In this document: positions 2,928-38,045 of the stretch, one piece after another | Position numbering within the stretch: position 1 is the stretch's first letter | Layout: each line of letters begins with the position of its first letter | Virus record (IMG/VR): IMGVR_UViG_3300033156_001353 | Coordinates: 1-38,045 of that record | DNA length: 38,045 bases | Strand: one strand, 5' to 3' | Source: a virus | Translations under genes and position numbers: made by a program | The notes under the pieces: model-generated | What the model was told of the DNA's origin: nothing | Seen by the model: only the letters and a program-made list of their open reading frames with translations | Databases searched by the model: none

Positions 2928-3212
2928 TTATGTCTCCTTAATCTTAATAATTGTCTTATGATCAAGGATGCTACCAATAGGTTCTCCGTCCTTATACACC
3001 ATATCATCTCCCCATTCACGATAAAATCCATTCCCAATTACCCAATACTGTTTACCATTAATTATATGCATACCAGGTTTTGCATTAGATAAATCAGGAT
3101 GTTTTGGTTTATGTCTTTTTTTAGATTTACCACAGGCAGGACAATACTTTTGATACGGTGTGAATTTAGATGGAATAAAAACATTACCACAATTTTGACA
3201 AATTTTTTCCAT
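2928..3212 (-). CDS. Small zinc-ribbon protein with PSKFTPYQKYCP motif
   Basis: A 94-residue protein. The N-terminal zinc ribbon is CQNCGNVFIPSKFTPYQKYC...C (Cys at about 5, 8, 25 and 28), followed by a basic Lys/His linker and a C-terminal GKQYWVIGNGFYREW segment. The ribbon is nearly identical to one in the protein at 3960-4358, and 29 bases of DNA (3139-3167) are identical to 4093-4121. The start lies about 13 bases after a GGGGG run, a long spacing. It is the first gene after promoter P2 and is followed directly by the HTH gene. Function unknown; nucleic-acid or protein binding through zinc is plausible. Confidence 0.75.
   Translation of the reverse strand: MEKICQNCGNVFIPSKFTPYQKYCPACGKSKKRHKPKHPDLSNAKPGMHIINGKQYWVIGNGFYREWGDDMVYKDGEPIGSILDHKTIIKIKET
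3139..3167. repeat. 29-bp exact repeat, copy A
   Basis: These 29 bases are identical to 4093-4121. Both copies encode the KFTPYQKYCP portion of a zinc ribbon in two different small genes. The identity at third codon positions points to a recent duplication or recombination between the two genes, since the flanking DNA has diverged. Confidence 0.9.
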
Positions 3213-3690: not shown

Positions 3691-3894
3691 CTAAAATTTT
3701 GGTCTAACTTCAACCTCTATCTGTTCCACAAGATTACCTATTCTTTTTTCTAATACGAACCCACAATATTCCCCTTCATCATTATAAAGCCTACCTACAT
3801 AGTGAAAATTTTTATTCTGCTTAAGATATTTCTTAAAAATCTCTTTCAAATCACCCCTCTCTATAAACCTTGAAACCTTATAATAATTTACCAT
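3691..3894 (-). CDS. Small hypothetical protein, 67 aa
   Basis: A 67-residue protein beginning MVNYYKVSRF. The ATG at 3894 has a perfect AGGAGG six bases upstream. An earlier in-frame ATG at 3924 lies inside the tRNA-like element TLS1 and is rejected. It is basic in the first half and ends in a beta-type segment (GFVLEKRIGNLVEQIEVEVR). This is the first gene downstream of TLS1; the discriminator-like A of TLS1 is 12 bases before the SD. No family recognised. Confidence 0.65.
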   Translation of the reverse strand: MVNYYKVSRFIERGDLKEIFKKYLKQNKNFHYVGRLYNDEGEYCGFVLEKRIGNLVEQIEVEVRPKF

Positions 3895-3916
3895 TTCTGA
3901 CCTCCTAAAAATAATT

Positions 3917-3960
3917 TGCTCCACCAGGGAATCGAACCCTGGCTTTGCACCATGTGGAGC
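3917..3960 (-). ncRNA. tRNA-like minihelix TLS1 (acceptor stem + T arm, no anticodon arm)
   Basis: Read on the minus strand: GCTCCAC (3960-3954), a 12-base linker ATGGTGCAAAGC, CAGGG (3941-3937), T-loop TTCGATT (3936-3930), CCCTG (3929-3925), GTGGAGC (3924-3918) and a discriminator-like A (3917). The 7-bp acceptor stem and 5-bp T stem are perfect and contiguous, as in a tRNA top half. The T loop has the invariant TTC-R-A. The linker keeps a GG that could dock with it as D-loop G18G19 does. D stem and anticodon arm are absent and no CCA is encoded. The first G is also the last base of the upstream gene's TAG stop. A second element of the same design lies at 4783-4829. Confidence 0.75.
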
Positions 3961-4358
3961 TACTTTTTTAACTTTCTACACTTTGGACAAAGAATAATAT
4001 AGGGAATAAACTTTGATCTCTTCCAAATTTCTCCACATTCAGAACAAACAACCTCTTCATAATCTGGCTTTGGAGCACTTTTTATGCAATCTGGACAATA
4101 CTTTTGATACGGTGTGAATTTGGAAGGAACAAATTCCTTCCCACACCTTTGACAGGTTTTAGTCTTTTTCGTAACATCTCGAACAGTAAGTCTCTTCTCA
4201 CCAGTTACCTCATATTCACCATCCCAAACTACCTTCACAAGATTTTCATGTTTGGAGATTCTAAAAGATTTCCCATCCTGAATGCCTTCATCTCCAATAT
4301 CCCCCTTCTTCCAGCTTCTGACAAGCTGTCTAACTTTTTCAATTTTCTTTAAATCCAT
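3960..4358 (-). CDS. Double zinc-ribbon protein
   Basis: A 132-residue protein. The N-terminal 65 residues are charged and mixed alpha/beta (MDLKKIEKVRQLVRSWKKGD). They are followed by two zinc ribbons: CQRCGKEFVPSKFTPYQKYC...C and CSECGEIWKRSKFIPYIILC...C. The first is almost identical to the ribbon of the protein at 2928-3212, including a 29-bp DNA repeat. The ATG at 4358 has AGGAGG six bases upstream and overlaps the preceding gene by 20 bases. The stop codon TAG supplies the first base of TLS1. With the gene upstream it forms a two-gene unit flanked by the two tRNA-like elements. Function unknown. Confidence 0.75.
   Translation of the reverse strand: MDLKKIEKVRQLVRSWKKGDIGDEGIQDGKSFRISKHENLVKVVWDGEYEVTGEKRLTVRDVTKKTKTCQRCGKEFVPSKFTPYQKYCPDCIKSAPKPDYEEVVCSECGEIWKRSKFIPYIILCPKCRKLKK
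4093..4121. repeat. 29-bp exact repeat, copy B
   Basis: Identical to 3139-3167. It encodes the KFTPYQKYCP segment of the first zinc ribbon in the gene at 3960-4358. Confidence 0.9.
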
Positions 4359-4758
4359 TCTTAGCCTCCTTTATATATTTTTCTTTTGCCTCTTTTAATG
4401 CCCCATCTTCATTTTCACACATGTAGGAAAACTCATAAATCTTATCTCCAACTTTCACTTTATAATACCATCTATTGCCCCATACTTTCCCATCATCCCA
4501 TTTTTCTATAATTTCAGGATCAACCGTAATATATTCCTTTCTCCTTTCTTTCCATTTGAAGAGAGGAATACTGTCTATTAATTCGAAATGGAGATGTTGA
4601 TTATCTCCATCCCGGATTGTGTCTCCAAAGTACAGAAACTGTACTCTTTTCAAGACATACACATTCCGATCTTTTGCTGATTGCCAGACCTCATAACCGA
4701 GGTCTGTTTTTTCAGTTAATATATAACCCTTTAAATCTTCTCTATAAATCTTTTTCAT
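4339..4758 (-). CDS. Hypothetical protein, 139 aa
   Basis: Begins MKKIYREDLKGYILTEK. The ATG at 4758 follows an AGGGGG SD; an earlier in-frame ATG at 4818 would start inside the tRNA-like element TLS2 and is rejected. It is rich in aromatic residues (Trp, Tyr), with alternating beta strands and a lysine-rich C-terminal helix (EDGALKEAKEKYIKEAK). No signal peptide, membrane segment or known motif. It is the first gene downstream of TLS2 and overlaps the double zinc-ribbon gene by 20 bases. I do not recognise it. Confidence 0.65.
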   Translation of the reverse strand: MKKIYREDLKGYILTEKTDLGYEVWQSAKDRNVYVLKRVQFLYFGDTIRDGDNQHLHFELIDSIPLFKWKERRKEYITVDPEIIEKWDDGKVWGNRWYYKVKVGDKIYEFSYMCENEDGALKEAKEKYIKEAKNGFKEN

Positions 4759-4782: not shown

Positions 4783-4829
4783 TGTCCTGGTGGGGAATCG
4801 AACCCCACCGTTGGACACCAGCCCAGGAC
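4783..4829 (-). ncRNA. tRNA-like minihelix TLS2 (acceptor stem + T arm, no anticodon arm)
   Basis: Read on the minus strand: GTCCTGG (4829-4823), a 15-base linker (4822-4808, containing TGGTG as in TLS1), TGGGG (4807-4803), T-loop TTCGATT (4802-4796), CCCCA (4795-4791), CCAGGAC (4790-4784) and A (4783). The 7-bp acceptor and 5-bp T stem are perfect. The stem sequences differ from TLS1 at nearly every position while pairing is kept, which is covariation within one genome. It lies two bases after a TGA stop and about 15 bases before the SD of the next gene. A run of six T follows about eight bases later, too far for a canonical terminator. Confidence 0.75.
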
Positions 4830-4831
4830 AT

Positions 4832-5047
4832 TCACTCTCCCAAAGCCGCTAGTGCTACGAGTCTTACCTCTGGAGAGAAATCTTTATCATTAGTTATGTG
4901 AGCAAGGATCTCAACACTCGGCATATTGCCTCTTACTTTTTCAACTCTCTCCTGCATGGCCTTAACCATCTTCTTATAACCTTCTTCCCCGTACTGCTTC
5001 TTTAAAAAATTTTGAGCTTTTAAAATTTGATCAACAACTGCCATCAT
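4832..5047 (-). CDS. Small helical protein, 71 aa, first gene of the early region
   Basis: Begins MMAVVDQILKAQNFLKKQYG. The ATG at 5047 has AGGAG about seven bases upstream, so the extension to 5149, which runs through an operator palindrome, is rejected. It is predicted all-helical with a C-terminal segment FSPEVRLVALAALGE that looks like a HEAT-type helix pair. Being the first gene after the operator array, it is likely expressed early and controlled by it. It could be a small regulator or host-takeover protein; no known family. Confidence 0.65.
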   Translation of the reverse strand: MMAVVDQILKAQNFLKKQYGEEGYKKMVKAMQERVEKVRGNMPSVEILAHITNDKDFSPEVRLVALAALGE

Positions 5048-5264
5048 TTTCAATCTCCTTTCAAAAGATTTCACTAAAAAACATGCAAGTCTCATGCCAA
5101 TTTTTATCAGGATTTTCTCTCGTATCATCATGATACAAATAAAACACATATTGATTCATCCTGACACAGATATAGATTCAACAGTGTATCAAGATAATCC
5201 TGAAAGTATATATCGGAATGACACAATCGCAGATTAGAAACATCTCGAATAAGAAAATCCCCAA

Positions 5265-7372: not shown

Positions 7373-10300
7373 TCAGACTCCGTAATTACTAGAATATTGA
7401 GTATTTGTGCCATAATCCGAAAATGCTGTAGTATTACCATGTAAAATATTACCAACAATTACATTATCATTACAATTTGCATCACCAACACTTATTCCAT
7501 ATGAATTATTAAAAGACACATTCTCTACTAAATTATTCCTATTAGAATTAGAAAGCCGTATACCATAACCACAACTTATACAAGTATTCCCTTTGATATT
7601 TGTTCCATCACTATAACTAAGCTGAATACCATATGGAGAGCAACTTGTGACCTTATTATCAGTTATATCAATATAATCACATTGATATATAAAAATTCCA
7701 TAGTATGTACATCCATCAATCTTATTCTTATTAATAGATACCTTCACTTTATTTGAAGATGCTCCAGATAATTCAATACCATATCTACAATCATCTATAA
7801 AACAATCTTTAATAACTCCCCTGAGATTATCTCCAGACAAACTTATAGAAATACCTCTTGACATATCTTCCCCATCAGTATTCCCCTTAAAAATACAATT
7901 CTCTACTATAAAATCTCCATCTGCATTCATACCAATTCCATAAGAGCCTGTTGTTCCCAAATCAGGTATATCATTAAATATACAATTTCTTACATTAAAA
8001 TTGTTGCACATATAATTCCATAATGCCCAATAATTTATATTCTCAAAAATAACATCGTAAATATATACATCATTTGAATCTCTAATATTTATTATTCCTA
8101 TTTGATTTGAATCTTCGCATTTTATCGTTAAATTATAAATTCCCACATTATCCGTATAATTACCATAAATCGCATTATCATTACAATTTCGATTAATAAT
8201 AGTTCCCTCTTTAGATTCACCCTCTATTCTAATACCTGGTTTTAGAACAATCTTCCCATCAATATTAAACGTACCATTTGAAAGTCTTATCCTACCACCA
8301 CCATATTTTTCATAAAGGTAATCAATAGCATCATTAATAATATCCTCATCACTTGAGCCTGAACAATAATAATGAGCAACATCTGTATAATCACTTGCTC
8401 CTATAATTAAAGTAGCTCCCACCATTTGCTGATTACGCATTCCCGGAGCATAAGCCTCAAACCTTGTAGAATATGTAGAATCTTTCTTCCAATTTTCAAG
8501 CTGTTCATAAAGGATTATTGAAGTTTTTTCCTCTCCAGTACTTGCATTGTATTCCCAATTGACCTCTGCAATTTCAGCCTTTGAATTTATATACTCAGAA
8601 AGCCCTGCCTGTCCCACAACCACATTAACCCATTCTCCTGGGAGCAACCAGAGCCATCCCCCAGTCATACTCATCGAATATTTATGCTTTCCACCTTTTC
8701 TTGATTTCCACCAATATTCCGCAATTTTGTCAACCTGAGAAGTAGAACAAATATAATCATTCGCAATTTCAAGATCATTTTCCCCATTTTCTCGAATATC
8801 CTTTATATCTTTAAACCAATCATGCACATAACCCTCACCACCAGTAATTTTTATTACAGGATTACCCACTATTGATACACCATAAACGTACACTGTACTA
8901 CCAGTCCCGTTATAAAGCTTGAAATATGCTCCATCAGGTCTTGTTGTGGTATCAAAAAGTGTTTGTGTAAGTGTACCGCTCGCTCTAACATTAAGCTGAG
9001 CATTTTTAATACCAACTATCTCAAGCTTTGCTCCACCATAACGATCTGAAAGCTTGTAATTTATTGTTTGTGTATAATAACGTTTTGTTCCAGGATAACT
9101 ACCATGAGATCGAGATTGTCTCGAAATACTTGCCCATGGCTGATCATATCGAGCAAAAAATTTGCTTCCGAATGTGGTAGGGTCTGGAAAATACTCTCCA
9201 TTAGCAATAGCTACTCTCATTTGCTCTCCACCATCAAACACACCACTCTTTGTTGCACTCCATAAACACCATTTGGTTTTATATTTAACAGAAGGATCAG
9301 CAGTATTCGTATTATAATATGCCCCACGAACAATTATCTTGTTATAACTTGCCTTTAAAATATCAGCCGTAAAATTATGGATGTCATCACCAGTTATATC
9401 TTCAATTGCATTTGGATCAGATTCCTGCTCATTAAAGCGACTTCTATATCGTAAAGCCCCACACCAATCAAAGCCCATAGATCTTGCCAAAGTAGCAGTA
9501 GCAATATCTCCCATATAAGTCCATACTGGATAATCAGGAAGTACCAAAGCCCAGGGATGAGTATCTGTAACTGAAACTATATCATAACCAGCCCTTTCTA
9601 TTACATCATATCTATCATTATTTTTTGGAGAGTCTGCAGAATAATAAGTCCCATTACCATCATCAGCATTTAAGATAAACCATTCATATCCCTCACCTTC
9701 AGTAAGCATAGCTCCATCAAAATAAATAGTTACAGATGCATTCTCTTCTAAGACAATCCTCAATCTATCACTTGCAGAATCAGTTATCTCATGTTCAACC
9801 TCATATCGTTTCCAACCAGAACCACCTGTATAATTACAAGATTCACTTGAAGAATTATTAAGTCCTGCAGAGTCCCTCTCTTCAATTTTTATATCTACAC
9901 TTACATTTAAAGAGCTTTTCATCCATATAGCAAATACCCACTTATCCCCGACATTAAGCTTTTTGTCTCCAGTAAATCTTATCTCTTGATATATATATCC
10001 TGAACCAGTCCAGACTCCCTCACAAGAATAAGTTCCAAATAAAGCCTCTGATGAAGATCGAGAAATTGAAACATTCCCAGAAGTAAGCCAACTATTCCCT
10101 ATAGTCGCATTCTCAAAACTTGAATTACTTGCATAATTATAAATCTTCAATGCCGTTGCAAGTTTGCCTATTTGAGTAATAAGAGAATTTGACTCATTCG
10201 ATTCATCAGCAAATTGAAGACCTTCATAATACTTAGTCTCTTCAACATAAACTTTTGACATCTCTTCTGTCATATCTTCAAATTCAATCCGAACAGTAGA

Positions 10301-11836
10301 CTTATCTCCAGGAGCACTTTCCCGCTTAAATCCATCTGCTGTTAATCTGCCAAAAAATATTGGCTCAAAACTATCCCCATAATAAACTTCCATCTCAACT
10401 GGACATCGTTTCTGAAGATATTTTTCATCTGAAGTTCCATTATATTGTTCATTCTCAGGATCAAAACTCGCATATTGATCATCAGAGAAAATTCCCTTAA
10501 CATTATTTATCGTAGCCCATCCCTTATTTGCTATTAAAAACCCAGCTCTACTCTCTTTTGTCATCTCTATACCAAGAGAATTTACTCTATGGGAAATATT
10601 ACACCGAGTCCTTCCTGTTCCATGACCATTAAAGCTCCAATAAACCTCTTCTGTTTTAATATTTCTCATGCGGTTTGAAATATCTGTTGACGTTGCAAGG
10701 TAATTCGGCCAGATCCTGAGGAAAGCTATTTCACCATCCCAATGATATGCTTCAGTTACATGACCTATAGACAATAAAGGAAAGTTAGAAGACTTTATAT
10801 CAACATTTCCACCCCAATTTGAATCCTGCAAAACCCAATTTACATAAAGACTTGATCCAGTAGATTGAGAAGTCCTAAGATCAATAATCCCGACTATATC
10901 AAGCCATTGATTAAGATTATCATAATTAGTTCCATCATCAAACTGCTGAGACCAAAGAGAGCGACCTGTTCCACCATCTATCCAATAAAGTCTTATTTTA
11001 TCTTCAGCAGATCTATAATAAAGAATTAACCTATGCGTATTATCTATCCGCCATGTAAATATTCTTGGATTCATATCAGTATCATAAGCAAAATAAGGTT
11101 TTACTCTTACCCAAAAAGTAAAATAATCTGGCATTTCAAAACAGTACTTTGGAGCAGGATCTCCTGCAAGATTTCCAAATTGTGCAACAAAACTACCTGG
11201 TTGATTCTCTTCTGTCAAAGAAATCTGATCTATCCATATGGAATCACCAGCTGGAACATCAGTCCACAATTGTATATATAACAATATCCCCGTACAATTA
11301 AGATCAACCGTAAAAGTCCCACCAACTTCCTCCCATTGATTCGATATTGATAGTTTACACAAAGTTTTATAATGCCATGCTCCGTCATAATATTGAGCAA
11401 CAATCAAGAAGGTATGATCTACATTAGCTGTATCAGTTCTCATCATGCATTTTAATGTATATGTTTTACCAGGAATAAGTCCGTGCATATCTGTATCACT
11501 ATGTGTGTCTTGGAAATATGCCTGAGCATGTCCATCTCCAGACGCTGATGTTTTTACCATCCGCCAGGAATAATTTCCCCGATAAGCCTCAGTAGAAGAC
11601 CTTGACCATGTACAATTTGAAGTAACTGGAGTAGATTCCCCTTTTACCATCGGAGCATTCGGGGAATCACAATGACCACGCTCTATTAATTGATCTAACT
11701 TGTGAAAAGACAGTCCATGTCCCGCAAGTGGTGGATAAACTTTTTGCCTAAAATCGACAAATAATTGATAATTCTTTCCACCTGCAGGCTCTCTAAGATA
11801 TGTCTTAAAATTATCATCAATAAAAAGTAAGCTCAT
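7373..11836 (-). CDS. Large multidomain tail tip/tailspike protein with C-terminal beta-helix
   Basis: 1487 residues, the longest gene. The start overlaps the tape-measure stop (ATGA). The first part resembles carbohydrate-binding jelly-roll domains (about 45-210) and a LamG-like domain (about 225-400). A tail-hub-like region follows (VEMEVYYGDSFEPIFFGRL near 490), then a second jelly-roll near 570-710 (NASFEN-type motif SSFENATIG). From about residue 1190 on, short repeats such as GIQLSYSDGTNIKGNTCISC and GIRLSNSNRNNLVEN form a right-handed parallel beta-helix of the pectate-lyase/NosD type. It probably combines baseplate hub and receptor-binding or polysaccharide-degrading functions. Catalytic residues cannot be assigned. 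Confidence 0.8.
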   Translation of the reverse strand: MSLLFIDDNFKTYLREPAGGKNYQLFVDFRQKVYPPLAGHGLSFHKLDQLIERGHCDSPNAPMVKGESTPVTSNCTWSRSSTEAYRGNYSWRMVKTSASGDGHAQAYFQDTHSDTDMHGLIPGKTYTLKCMMRTDTANVDHTFLIVAQYYDGAWHYKTLCKLSISNQWEEVGGTFTVDLNCTGILLYIQLWTDVPAGDSIWIDQISLTEENQPGSFVAQFGNLAGDPAPKYCFEMPDYFTFWVRVKPYFAYDTDMNPRIFTWRIDNTHRLILYYRSAEDKIRLYWIDGGTGRSLWSQQFDDGTNYDNLNQWLDIVGIIDLRTSQSTGSSLYVNWVLQDSNWGGNVDIKSSNFPLLSIGHVTEAYHWDGEIAFLRIWPNYLATSTDISNRMRNIKTEEVYWSFNGHGTGRTRCNISHRVNSLGIEMTKESRAGFLIANKGWATINNVKGIFSDDQYASFDPENEQYNGTSDEKYLQKRCPVEMEVYYGDSFEPIFFGRLTADGFKRESAPGDKSTVRIEFEDMTEEMSKVYVEETKYYEGLQFADESNESNSLITQIGKLATALKIYNYASNSSFENATIGNSWLTSGNVSISRSSSEALFGTYSCEGVWTGSGYIYQEIRFTGDKKLNVGDKWVFAIWMKSSLNVSVDIKIEERDSAGLNNSSSESCNYTGGSGWKRYEVEHEITDSASDRLRIVLEENASVTIYFDGAMLTEGEGYEWFILNADDGNGTYYSADSPKNNDRYDVIERAGYDIVSVTDTHPWALVLPDYPVWTYMGDIATATLARSMGFDWCGALRYRSRFNEQESDPNAIEDITGDDIHNFTADILKASYNKIIVRGAYYNTNTADPSVKYKTKWCLWSATKSGVFDGGEQMRVAIANGEYFPDPTTFGSKFFARYDQPWASISRQSRSHGSYPGTKRYYTQTINYKLSDRYGGAKLEIVGIKNAQLNVRASGTLTQTLFDTTTRPDGAYFKLYNGTGSTVYVYGVSIVGNPVIKITGGEGYVHDWFKDIKDIRENGENDLEIANDYICSTSQVDKIAEYWWKSRKGGKHKYSMSMTGGWLWLLPGEWVNVVVGQAGLSEYINSKAEIAEVNWEYNASTGEEKTSIILYEQLENWKKDSTYSTRFEAYAPGMRNQQMVGATLIIGASDYTDVAHYYCSGSSDEDIINDAIDYLYEKYGGGRIRLSNGTFNIDGKIVLKPGIRIEGESKEGTIINRNCNDNAIYGNYTDNVGIYNLTIKCEDSNQIGIINIRDSNDVYIYDVIFENINYWALWNYMCNNFNVRNCIFNDIPDLGTTGSYGIGMNADGDFIVENCIFKGNTDGEDMSRGISISLSGDNLRGVIKDCFIDDCRYGIELSGASSNKVKVSINKNKIDGCTYYGIFIYQCDYIDITDNKVTSCSPYGIQLSYSDGTNIKGNTCISCGYGIRLSNSNRNNLVENVSFNNSYGISVGDANCNDNVIVGNILHGNTTAFSDYGTNTQYSSNYGV

Positions 11837-30505: not shown

Positions 30506-33295
30506 TTAAAATATTTTTACTATTATATCAGACATCTGTCTTAATACCTTTTCCGAAATCTCAACCCTACCCATAGGAACACCTTTATAAAATATATTTG
30601 GATATAAAGAATTTTTGCCCACACGTATAGGTTTATTAATCTCAATAAACATATCTTCATATCTCGTTACAAGCCTCTTTAAAACCCCTCTTTCATCAAC
30701 ATTAAATATCCCTATAGTACCATTTTTTACATTAAGTTTTCCCCATACATTGGGAAATACAGTTATAGATTTAACCCCATCCAAAAACTCCACAGTTAGA
30801 AAAGCCATCGGCAAACCATTTTTAGTAATCTTTTTATGAATATCAATAATTTCTCCAACATTTGCCCATTTATTCCACCAAATACAATCTATCTTACGCT
30901 TCCCTACATAATATCCCAAAAATTCCCTTTCATCTTCCATCGTAGGCTTTCGACCAAATACACCTATTCTATCTAATATATCTAATACCCGCTTATTAAC
31001 ACGAGCCTTTTGAATAAAATCTTCCTTATCCTTATATGGCCTATTCTTAAGTATTACTTCAACAGTCTTTTTACCAATATATTTTATACCACCTAATCCA
31101 ATATATATATGATCATCTCTTACTTCAAAACTTTCCCCAGATTTATTTATGTCTGGATATCTAATCTCTACACCTCTACGCCTACATTCACTCAATATCA
31201 AGGTTCTTTTACTGATATCTGAATTGTTTAAAAGCTCACATAAAAAGTATGCGGGATAATTGGCCGAAAAATATGCTGTCCAATAAGAAATAAGTGTATA
31301 TGCTACAGCATGACTTAAATTCCACGTATATCGACCATATTTTTCAATAATGTTCCAAAACTTTTCCCCATCTTCACAACTTGCAATAAATTTAGATTTT
31401 AAACCCTTAAGTAATTTTTTATCCTTTTTACTAATAGCTTTTCTGAGAATATCAGCTTCCCCAGTACTAAAACCAGCTACTACCCTGGCTAAAGTCATAA
31501 TATCTTCTTGAAATAACGGTAAACCCTGATGTTTAAGCTTAAGCCTCGGATGTAACTGTTCTACAGGTTCAAGCCCATGTTTCCGCCTTATATACTGCTC
31601 AGTGATTCCACTCTCTAAACAACCTGGTCTATATAAAGTATTTAAATCAACAAGCTCATCAAAAGTCTCTGGCTTAAGCCTCCGGATTATGTTAATATAA
31701 CCACTTGATTCCCATTGAAACACTCCCAAAGTATGACCTGACCTAATAAGATCAAAAGTCTTTTCATCATCAAGAGGAATATCCTCTACAGAAATACTTA
31801 ACTGCTTACACAAATTCTCTATCATCTGTAAATTATTAACACTCAATACATCAAACTTAACCCTCTTCATATATTCAAGACTATACATATCCCATGCTGT
31901 AGCTATCTTTCCTTTATATTTTCTCAAAGGTATACTATCAGCACATACTATTCCCGATGCATGAATAGATTGACCCTTCTTTACCCCCTCAAGTTTAAGA
32001 CATATACGTATAAACTCTTCATTATGTTCACGCTTAACCTGATCCAGAAAACTCTTAGTTTTGACAAGTTCAGCCAAAGTAGGAATTGGAGCTTCATTCG
32101 GTACATATTCTATAAGTTTTGTCTTTATTCCCAAAAGTTTAGATACCGTTATTAAAACATCTTTCGTACCAAATGTTTGATACGTACCTATTTTCTGAAA
32201 ATTACCATATGCGTTAAAAATATCAATAGCTTTTTCTCTCCCCTCTGGAGTAAAATCTAAATCTATATCAGGTAAAGATATTCTATCTGGATTTAAAAAT
32301 CTCTCAAAGTAAAGACCCCATTCTATCGGGTCTATTTTGGTTATTCCCAAAAGATACGATACAAGTGACCCCGACGCACTACCACGACCCCATCCTCGAA
32401 ATCCACCACGATTATCAAATTTATTGCAAACAGTAGCAACCAAAGCAAAATATGATAAAAATCCATTCTCTTTGATAACTTTAAGCTCATACTCAAGCCT
32501 TTGTCTATAACCCACTGGACACCTTCTCCGAAGACTCTCTATAAGAACCTCTTCAGAAAATTCAAATTTTGGCATAATAATTTCATCAGGAGCTATTTCA
32601 TACTCTTCCACACTATCAGCTATCTCTTCCGCAACCTTACAATCTATTTTCCTGTAAAAATATTCTCCATTCAAAGGTTTCGGATCTTTAAATTTTAATT
32701 TATACAACAAAAAATGAATTTGTTTATCCTCTTTATCTAAATAATGCGTATCTCCAGTATGTACACACCTTAACCCACGTTTTTTATATTCCCTATAAAC
32801 TGCCTCTTGTTCAGCCATTCCACATAACTGTACTTCTGGATATATCTCAACTTGATCATCCATTTTCTTATACCATTCCATATCAATACTTCCATTAAGT
32901 ACCGATTTTGCCAAATATCCACTTATACATCCAGTAAGATATATAATTCCATCACTATAAGTTTTTAAATATTCAAATGGAACAACAGGTTTTCTATAAA
33001 AATTTTGCACCGCAAGATTATTTAATCTAATCAAATTATCAAAACCACGCTTATTTTTAGCCAAAGCTACAATATGATATGTATCTCCATTGTATTCATG
33101 ATAAAACTCACATCCATGAATAGGTTTAATCCCTTGCTTCTTGCAAGCTCTATGAAATTCCACAAGTCCACCAACAGTTCCATGATCAGTAAGAGCCACA
33201 GCCTTTTCTCCATTCTGTTTTGCACGCTTTACCAAATCTTCCACTTTAACTATTGAATCTAATACTGAATAATCCGAATGATTATGTAAGTTCAT
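30506..33295 (-). CDS. dnaE: DnaE-type DNA polymerase III alpha subunit with PHP domain
   Basis: 929 residues, shorter than bacterial DnaE (about 1160). PHP domain 1-215 keeps the metal ligands seen in active PHP exonucleases: H4/H6 in LHNHSDYS, D37-H38, E63, H74, C123, D182 and H184. Polymerase palm: GRGSASGS at 303-310, PDIDLDF with Asp343 and Asp345, and KFDVL with Asp482. An OB-like segment lies near residue 820 (IIDIHKKITKNGLPMAFLTV). It is the only replicative polymerase in the window. The start overlaps the dUTPase stop (ATGA). In this genome it must copy and accept Z if the PurZ prediction holds. Confidence 0.95.
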   Translation of the reverse strand: MNLHNHSDYSVLDSIVKVEDLVKRAKQNGEKAVALTDHGTVGGLVEFHRACKKQGIKPIHGCEFYHEYNGDTYHIVALAKNKRGFDNLIRLNNLAVQNFYRKPVVPFEYLKTYSDGIIYLTGCISGYLAKSVLNGSIDMEWYKKMDDQVEIYPEVQLCGMAEQEAVYREYKKRGLRCVHTGDTHYLDKEDKQIHFLLYKLKFKDPKPLNGEYFYRKIDCKVAEEIADSVEEYEIAPDEIIMPKFEFSEEVLIESLRRRCPVGYRQRLEYELKVIKENGFLSYFALVATVCNKFDNRGGFRGWGRGSASGSLVSYLLGITKIDPIEWGLYFERFLNPDRISLPDIDLDFTPEGREKAIDIFNAYGNFQKIGTYQTFGTKDVLITVSKLLGIKTKLIEYVPNEAPIPTLAELVKTKSFLDQVKREHNEEFIRICLKLEGVKKGQSIHASGIVCADSIPLRKYKGKIATAWDMYSLEYMKRVKFDVLSVNNLQMIENLCKQLSISVEDIPLDDEKTFDLIRSGHTLGVFQWESSGYINIIRRLKPETFDELVDLNTLYRPGCLESGITEQYIRRKHGLEPVEQLHPRLKLKHQGLPLFQEDIMTLARVVAGFSTGEADILRKAISKKDKKLLKGLKSKFIASCEDGEKFWNIIEKYGRYTWNLSHAVAYTLISYWTAYFSANYPAYFLCELLNNSDISKRTLILSECRRRGVEIRYPDINKSGESFEVRDDHIYIGLGGIKYIGKKTVEVILKNRPYKDKEDFIQKARVNKRVLDILDRIGVFGRKPTMEDEREFLGYYVGKRKIDCIWWNKWANVGEIIDIHKKITKNGLPMAFLTVEFLDGVKSITVFPNVWGKLNVKNGTIGIFNVDERGVLKRLVTRYEDMFIEINKPIRVGKNSLYPNIFYKGVPMGRVEISEKVLRQMSDIIVKIF

Positions 33296-36771: not shown

Positions 36772-37094
36772 AATACAAGTTCCTTTTCCTCTGTTACGAG
36801 AGTTATTTTTCTACTTAAAGAATCATATTGAAACTTTACATCCTTAAGTAACTGTTCAAACATATCACGTTTTGACATAGCCTCTAAATCTCCCCTATTC
36901 AACCGTACATGATTTACAAGAAAAGCATATATTTCAGAAAGATAATTATACAACGCAGGATAATAACCAAGCAAATCATAATAAAGATCCTTATCAACAG
37001 GTAGCTTATAATGGAGCTTGATTAATTTAAACATCTTCTTTCTAATCTCATTAAAAGGTACACTAAGCACATTATCTACTCTTATATATTCCAT
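36768..37094 (-). CDS. Hypothetical helical protein, 108 aa
   Basis: MEYIRVDNVLSVPFNEIRKK; all-helical with DLEAMSKRDMFEQLLKDVKF at the C-terminus. It overlaps the DatZ-like gene by 13 bases and the next gene by ATGA. I looked for a MazG/MazZ motif (EExxE ... ExxD) and did not find it. Not recognised. Confidence 0.65.
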   Translation of the reverse strand: MEYIRVDNVLSVPFNEIRKKMFKLIKLHYKLPVDKDLYYDLLGYYPALYNYLSEIYAFLVNHVRLNRGDLEAMSKRDMFEQLLKDVKFQYDSLSRKITLVTEEKELVL

Positions 37095-37624
37095 TGATAT
37101 CCCTCTAAACTCGTTTTATATAATGGAATACAGTATTCAAGTCTTGACAAGAAAAACCTCTTTACATTATGATCTATATCAAAATTATAAAGCTTTGTGT
37201 AAGTATATCGCTCCACATCATATAAATGCCAATTACCACTTTTTCGCTCTTCTTCAAGATAAATCTTAAGCTCAAGAAGATCACAAAATTCCACAAGCTT
37301 CTGTATATTCTCGGAAAAGTCATTCTCTATACCAAATTCTTTATAAATATTTTCTTCTGGAACATTAAGTATAGGCTTAAAAAATGAAGGAATGTCTCCA
37401 GTTATACATTCAGGAAGATCATGAAAAAGTGCACATCGCAAAGCCTCTTCAACCGAAAGTCCCATCATCATAGCACCAAGCATTGCATAATAAGCCACAA
37501 AATATGAATGTTCAGCCACAGATATTTTATTATTTACGCACCTTGTTGAGAACCGCTTGATATATCTCAAAGATCTGTTTCTCCGATAATTTAGAGATGG
37601 ATTCATAAAACGCTTGTTTGCCAT
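37082..37624 (-). CDS. datZ: DatZ-like HD-domain dATP phosphohydrolase
   Basis: 180 residues. LRYIKRFSTRCVNNKISVAE-His39-Ser aligns without gaps to the start of YfbR/DatZ enzymes. Then comes H68-D69 in LFHDLPECITGDIP and the last metal ligand D115 in FCDLLELK. DatZ of cyanophage S-2L removes dATP so that polymerases insert Z opposite T. Together with PurZ this supports a Z genome. The ATG at 37624 has GGGGAG seven bases upstream but overlaps recA by 95 bases; a Met at 37606 or a TTG at 37570 (GGAG upstream) are alternative starts. A general dNMP phosphatase (YfbR) is the other possibility. Confidence 0.78.
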   Translation of the reverse strand: MANKRFMNPSLNYRRNRSLRYIKRFSTRCVNNKISVAEHSYFVAYYAMLGAMMMGLSVEEALRCALFHDLPECITGDIPSFFKPILNVPEENIYKEFGIENDFSENIQKLVEFCDLLELKIYLEEERKSGNWHLYDVERYTYTKLYNFDIDHNVKRFFLSRLEYCIPLYKTSLEGYQWNI

Positions 37625-38045
37625 TGAATTTCTCCCCTTCATAAATATACCATGTACCATTAATAGTTACCTCTCCACACATAATTAAAAATTCTATAAA
37701 TTCTCTATGAAGATCAATACCTTTACCATACACAAGAGGAATATCTACCTCTCTAAAAGGAAGACTAAATTTATTTTTTGTTATTTTAGCCCTTATTAAG
37801 TGACCCTCTTTATTAACCTCAATAGCTCTAACATGAATCCTTTGGGAAGAATAAAATCGTAAAGCCTTTCCACCGCTTGTAGTTTCCGGAGATCCAAAAA
37901 ATACACCTATTTTTACACGAGTCTGATTGATAAAAATAATTATAGCCCCAGCTCTACCCACAATTCCTGCAAGTTGTCTACAAGCTTGACCCATAAGCCG
38001 AGCCTGAAGACCCATATAAGCTTCTCCTGTATCTCCCTTATATTC
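37530..38045 (-). CDS. recA: RecA/UvsX-like recombinase, C-terminal part
   Basis: Continuation of the gene that starts at 519. The frame is open from 38045 (which equals position 114) to the stop at 37530 and carries LAGIVGRAGAIIIFINQTRV, the loop-2 region FFGSPETTSGGKALRFYSS, and IPLVYGKGIDLHREFI. An internal Met (38015) could be mistaken for a start; it corresponds to residue 146 of the intact protein. The C-terminal domain is reduced. The last 95 bases overlap the DatZ-like start region. Confidence 0.93.
   Translation of the reverse strand, partial: EYKGDTGEAYMGLQARLMGQACRQLAGIVGRAGAIIIFINQTRVKIGVFFGSPETTSGGKALRFYSSQRIHVRAIEVNKEGHLIRAKITKNKFSLPFREVDIPLVYGKGIDLHREFIEFLIMCGEVTINGTWYIYEGEKFNGKQAFYESISKLSEKQIFEIYQAVLNKVRK
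37932..38045. repeat. Terminal direct repeat, right copy
   Basis: Identical to positions 1-114; see the left copy. Removing it gives a circular map of 37,931 bp. Confidence 0.9.

Follow-up and report, generated by a model that had tools for sequence, protein, structure and literature searches.

tRNA-like minihelices without an anticodon arm at gene boundaries of phages and haloarchaea are candidate minimal t-elements

The elbow of a tRNA, formed where the T loop meets two guanosines of the D loop, is the reference point from which RNase P and RNase Z measure. In mascRNA and menRNA only this elbow is retained, and both RNAs are processed by RNase P and then by RNase Z (PMC11693755), and bacterial RNase P RNA cleaves model hairpins that contain only an acceptor stem and a T arm at the canonical site (PMC11143913). 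In Haloferax cells, RNase P and tRNase Z cut tRNA-like elements (PMC4946936). Two mitochondrial systems are described in PMC8003010: the t-elements of plants, which are tRNA-like structures at gene boundaries that set mRNA ends through tRNA-processing nucleases (Forner et al. 2007 and Hanic-Joyce et al. 1990, as cited there), and the punctuation of animal mitochondrial mRNAs by tRNAs (Ojala et al. 1981, as cited there).

The minihelices described here resemble plant t-elements in being tRNA-like structures located at gene boundaries. Unlike plant t-elements, they occur in viruses and prokaryotes, are smaller and uniform in size (38–50 nt), lack an anticodon arm, are often repeated within a genome and are placed at the stop codon, and their cleavage is predicted. 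They share with the tRNAs of mitochondrial punctuation the form of structured tRNA units in sense orientation between ORFs, but they have no anticodon and are non-decoding, so that their sole use would lie in punctuation or in some non-coding role. mascRNA and menRNA likewise combine an acceptor stem with a T arm and a pair of guanosines at the elbow, but carry an anticodon-like stem and lie at the 3′ end of nuclear long non-coding RNAs rather than between cistrons. The tRNA-like domain of tmRNA consists of an acceptor stem, a T arm and a D loop without a D stem; unlike tmRNA, the minihelices have no mRNA-like domain, tag reading frame or CCA. RNase P model substrates such as AT1 (PMC11143913) and the Haloferax t-elements (PMC4946936) are likewise top-half or tRNA-like and were accepted by the enzymes in those studies, but they are laboratory constructs, whereas the minihelices are natural and under selection. 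In function, the t-elements of plant mitochondria come closest. A search of the full-text literature, with preprints outside its scope, returned no account of intergenic minihelices lacking an anticodon in phages or prokaryotes; in our reading, they have gone unannotated because they are too short for tRNA finders.

Two minihelices in the window

The DNA analysed here (the window) is the 38,045-nt IMG/VR virus record IMGVR_UViG_3300033156_001353, a tailed-phage record with PurZ (1160–2212), DNA polymerase, dATPase-like, terminase, portal and capsid genes. On its minus strand we found a 43-nt tRNA top-half minihelix, TLS1 (3918–3960), with a discriminator A at 3917. Its 7-bp acceptor stem is formed by GCTCCAC (3960–3954) and GTGGAGC (3924–3918), its 12-nt linker (ATGGTGCAAAGC; 3953–3942) contains UGG at 3952–3950, and its 5-bp T stem (CAGGG, 3941–3937; CCCTG, 3929–3925) closes the T loop TTCGATT (UUCGAUU in RNA; 3936–3930). 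All 12 pairs are Watson–Crick. An earlier note on this DNA had described these perfect stems, the consensus T loop, the GG-containing linker and the lack of a D stem and an anticodon arm, all of which we confirmed by reading the minus strand. It had also placed the beginning of the element on the last base of an upstream stop codon, and the first base of TLS1 (3960) is indeed the G of the TAG (3962–3960) that ends the gene for a 132-amino-acid double zinc-ribbon protein (ORF 4358–3960, minus strand). The distance from the end of TLS1 to the following Shine–Dalgarno (SD) sequence, given as 12 bases in that note, needs correction: AGGAGG lies at 3906–3901 and the gap measures 11 nt, or 10 nt when A3917, the discriminator, is taken as part of the element. 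The gene 3′ of TLS1 (3691–3894, minus strand) starts at ATG 3894, and its product, which begins MVNYYKVSRF, gave no family match.

A second minihelix, TLS2 (4784–4829, minus strand), has the stems GTCCTGG/CCAGGAC and TGGGG/CCCCA, a 15-nt linker (GCTGGTGTCCAACGG) and a T loop identical to that of TLS1. It is an independent copy, with stems unrelated to those of TLS1. TLS2 lies 2 nt past the stop of the gene at 4832–5149 (minus strand) and 25 nt ahead of ATG 4758, which is preceded by AAGGGGG and opens a gene (4339–4758, minus strand) whose product begins MKKIYRED and gave no family match. All genes around the two minihelices are on the minus strand. When folded alone, TLS1 RNA formed a 12-bp hairpin (z −2.0), and folding of TLS2 RNA alone allowed, in addition, a small hairpin in the linker that resembles a D arm. 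In 400 dinucleotide shuffles of the window, perfect elements numbered 0.02 on average, compared with the 2 copies observed, and none of these shuffles yielded an element equalling TLS1 or TLS2 in strength. TLS1 scored 50.2 and 50.9 bits with covariance models R1 and R2, respectively, both of which had TLS1 in their training set; TLS2 scored 31.8 bits with R1, which was built from eight sequences with TLS2 left out.

The window copies did not fall into a known RNA family. ARAGORN called no tRNA and no tmRNA in the window, Rfam at gathering cutoffs gave no match there, and blastn of the TLS region against annotated phages was also negative. Both copies have the 7-bp acceptor stem, 5-bp T stem and 7-nt T loop (TTCRANN) that are hallmarks of a tRNA, and lack its anticodon arm and D stem; the score with the tRNA family (RF00005) was 20.5 bits against a cutoff of 29. 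The top Rfam family for both was mascRNA/menRNA (RF01684), with 26.2 and 25.8 bits against a cutoff of 42.5, and the compact stem that replaces the anticodon arm in that family is absent from the window copies, which have a linker of 12–15 nt. This linker, like the negative ARAGORN result, argues against a tmRNA with its mRNA-like domain and tag peptide, and the U tract that directly follows the stem of an intrinsic terminator is missing. What the copies share with t-elements is a tRNA-like fold at a gene boundary in sense orientation, with pairing kept by selection.

The window had two further features. The PurZ-like gene, the phage DNA polymerase gene and a dATP triphosphohydrolase-like gene (listed at 1160–2212, 30506–33295 and 37082–37660) suggest that the genome of this phage contains 2-aminoadenine (Z). 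Additionally, the neighbouring zinc-ribbon genes at 2928–3212 and 3960–4358 share the motif KFTPYQKYCP, and the same pair of genes is present in the distant phage L002 described below.

Distribution and covariation of the class

Viral and prokaryotic genome collections were searched with DNA patterns for the linker UGGUG and the T arm, in which only the two inner base pairs of the T stem were imposed, leaving acceptor and outer T-stem pairing free. ARAGORN was used to mask the many matches that proved to be 3′ halves of genuine tRNAs. Of the 227 T arms remaining outside its tRNA calls, 24 had perfect acceptor pairing at the tRNA register, compared with about 1–6 of 227 at offsets of at least two bases; the 16 found at a one-base offset came from neighbouring registers of longer stems. 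Model R1 recovered TLS2 plus many unrelated loci. Minihelices were present in C. difficile phage phiC2 (53,681–53,723, a gap without annotation), in HF1-group haloviruses, in the lysogeny modules of Lactobacillaceae prophages and in numerous metagenomic phages. They can be repeated, with about ten minihelices alternating with genes at locus L348 and six copies at L298. The first C. difficile element (L350, 2818–2856) was dropped as evidence, as it has many G–U pairs and may use another acceptor pairing.

The class reaches beyond phages to chromosomal operons of haloarchaea. On haloarchaeal chromosomes (L396–L400), up to two minihelices per locus separate consecutive genes that encode secreted proteins; these proteins carry a YFSDTET motif and, from our reading of their sequences, look TasA/SipW-like. 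Matches at E ≤ 1e-5 were found in 8 of 26 genomes of that haloarchaeal family and in 9 of 121 Lactobacillaceae genomes. In Lentilactobacillus senioris, one minihelix (L214, 4162–4204) comes after a chromosomal gene, for an oxidoreductase, that does not resemble a phage gene, and two more copies lie within 17 kb. None of nine well-known phages (lambda, SPbeta, SPO1, T4, P22, LP65, phiKZ, phiC31 and P1) had a match at E ≤ 0.05, which is both a control for specificity and a limit on generality. Searches of annotated phages, near ones for L055 and L061 and distant ones for L178 and L186, also gave no match. At locus L315 (7380–8917), about twelve mini-tRNA-like units are arrayed in tandem at intervals of roughly 120 nt, not obviously between genes, and many of them are preceded by a hairpin with the loop TTGTGAAA. 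This array and that at L336 are not clearly intergenic punctuation, and other roles are possible for them.

The zinc-ribbon protein, used as a query, led to a single distant relative of the window phage (L002; 30% identity). PurZ, the single-strand-binding gene and the two zinc-ribbon genes are common to L002 and the window, in synteny. The L002 minihelix (AGCCTAT...GTAGGTT) lies at the junction of a stop and an SD sequence: its first base overlaps the stop of the preceding gene, and it ends 36 nt before the zinc-ribbon ATG; its stems are entirely different from those of the window copies, whereas the architecture is alike. Scanning for PurZ gave no locus when the query was just the window protein and five loci when it was a two-row alignment; of these, only L351, which is the same contig as L002, had a minihelix, and this phage group yielded no other. 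Two other PurZ phages carry a longer tRNA-like structure with a matching acceptor stem and T arm at the junction of an SSB-like gene and the DNA polymerase gene (L353, 4080–4165; L355, 2470–2555); these were not called by ARAGORN and were not counted as minihelices. The fragments from terminase relatives, few of which span the matching region, contained no minihelix.

The earlier note had proposed a covariance search in relatives as a check, and this search located the element in unrelated viruses with its pairing maintained through compensatory changes. In 78 aligned copies, 93.4% of cells were paired, compared with 53.3% after shuffling and 43–55% with the partners slid; the covariation score was 0.953 versus 0.184, and changes on both sides were seen at 11 of 12 pairs. 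Because this alignment was fitted to the structure and its innermost acceptor pair, the seventh, is weak and frequently missing across the class, orthologues provide a cleaner test. The element of halovirus HF2 at 4375–4414 lies in the gap between two genes that are conserved in 41 halovirus records. Its acceptor strands, GCTCCG/CGGAGC, correspond to GCTCTG/CAGAGC in Serpecor1, a compensatory double change, and to GCCCCG/CGGGGC in HRTV-24, a separate compensatory double change, with the T arm unchanged among the three. Between C. difficile loci, outer T-stem pairs and acceptor pairs change together.

The HF1-group viruses have other tRNA-like features. In HF2, each of two minihelices (within 2905–2978 and 4375–4446) is followed by a second hairpin and then by a shared sequence, GTGACACCGATG, at the start of the next gene. 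HF2 also has an annotated intergenic hammerhead ribozyme and encodes an RtcB RNA ligase (10292–10359 and 37516–38880), and the cutting and joining of RNA may be a theme of this virus. An aberrant tRNA-Pro upstream of terL in HF1-group viruses is flagged in PMC7230728 as needing further study, in passages that make no mention of the minihelices. The HF2 tRNA-Pro, annotated on the plus strand (74632–74701; 24632–24701 of L357), also folds on the coding strand of terL, as a longer tRNA-like structure that begins 4 nt past a stop and ends shortly before the terL start. From its sequence, this fold looks like a longer punctuation element.

Placement, 3′ context and a proposed role in mRNA processing

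We examined placement in 141 non-identical candidates relative to same-strand ORFs of at least 60 codons. In 53 of them the first base falls in the interval from −5 to +25 nt around the stop of such an ORF, whereas random positions drawn from the same contigs do so in 5.9% of cases, and the next start preceded by an SD sequence is mostly 22–50 nt past the 3′ end of the minihelix. For the other 88, no stop falls inside this interval, which means that the candidate set holds false positives or minihelices with other uses. Among the 53 stop-associated copies, the linker contains UGG in 48 and the loop is UUCGAUU in 40, and none encodes CCA (NCCA). One of the two positions that follow the discriminator (74 and 75) is a U in 44 of the 53, compared with a background of 41% (P = 6e-10), and in 29 of 35 when one copy is taken per contig (P = 2e-7). 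In Bacillus subtilis, such a U activates RNase Z about 200-fold on CCA-less tRNAs (PMC10100781). TLS1 and TLS2 have A at positions 74–75 (AAATTA and AAAATC) and thus lack the U that favours RNase Z; AAAT or AAAAT follows their acceptor stems, and then a short U run. As far as can be read from sequence, the 3′ context of the class fits RNase Z, the window copies excepted.

We think it probable that TLS1 and TLS2 work in cis within polycistronic phage mRNA, as minimal t-elements that serve RNase P and RNase Z as cleavage sites. As elbow-only substrates are cut by these enzymes, the simplest reading is that each minihelix would be excised from a polycistronic transcript. Host RNase P would cut on the 5′ side, at or beside the upstream stop codon, and RNase Z past the discriminator base. 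The upstream mRNA would then end at its own stop codon, the downstream gene would gain a leader of about 20–25 nt with its own SD sequence, and an RNA of about 43 nt would be set free, which would allow neighbouring genes separate stabilities and levels. With the stop overlapping the minihelix, a terminating ribosome would sit on the 5′ acceptor strand, and we speculate that cleavage might depend on translation. The structure, its covariation, the GG/UGG linker, the intergenic position, the lack of CCA and the class-wide U74/75 are observed features, from which we infer cleavage by the two enzymes and an effect on expression. The proposal of mRNA punctuation in the earlier note is thus borne out in part: the position between a stop and the next ribosome-binding site and the conserved pairing agree with it, but the window copies are without U74/75. 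A cut at the stop codon would also leave the 3′ end of the upstream mRNA unprotected, which counts against a t-element, as do the Rfam scores under the cutoffs, the frequent absence of the seventh acceptor pair, the 88 candidates away from a stop and the nine phages with no match.

Most other explanations fit poorly with the conserved elbow, the 3′ context and the strict placement on the sense strand. One of these is a role in trans, in which a processed and perhaps CCA-tailed minihelix would be a decoy for enzymes that act on tRNA, such as defence or toxin proteins that recognize the acceptor or the elbow. Many viruses have a well-formed elbow mimic, and some phages have many copies, including the L315 array, but an RNA acting in trans would need neither the strict same-strand placement after a stop and before an SD sequence nor one copy per gene junction, as in L348. 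CCA is not encoded, and cellular operons also have minihelices, and we regard this role as unlikely. We likewise give little weight to an uncut 3′ structure, which would shield the upstream mRNA from exonucleases or insulate translation of the neighbouring gene with no RNase P or RNase Z step. The stable 12-bp stem directly after stops would suit such a function; a plain hairpin, however, would need neither the T loop TTCGATT (40/53) nor the UGG linker (48/53), and the partition into 7 and 5 bp and the U74/75 bias would be superfluous as well.

The conserved T loop and UGG would also be left unexplained by a transcription attenuator or terminator, which a run of five to six U residues located 6 nt past both window copies might indicate. 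This run does not directly follow the stem, a terminator scan called neither copy, and among the 53 stop-associated minihelices only these two have a U5 run within 14 nt, making this explanation very improbable. Equally far-fetched, in our view, is descent from tRNA genes, through either deletion of the anticodon arm or capture of attachment-site fragments. The sequence is tRNA-like, prophages integrate at tRNA genes, and attP-type tRNA fragments and deleted tRNAs are reported for HF1-group viruses in PMC7230728. Attachment fragments, however, lack the 5′ acceptor strand, whereas here both strands covary, and the copies have unrelated stems and are sited at gene junctions. Decay would not keep pairing, and the compensatory changes already contradict it.

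Dozens of like shapes at gene boundaries suggest, on sequence grounds, an overlooked form of mRNA cutting by the tRNA-processing enzymes of the cell. The covariance model can be used to annotate minihelices, and the cleavage model predicts nucleotide-exact transcript ends in culturable systems, namely halovirus HF2, phage phiC2 and Lactobacillaceae prophages. If it is true, the minihelix would offer a natural processing part of about 43 nt for synthetic operons. If the minihelices are cut, many viruses would use two essential host enzymes on their polycistronic transcripts, and the same device would operate in some archaeal operons.
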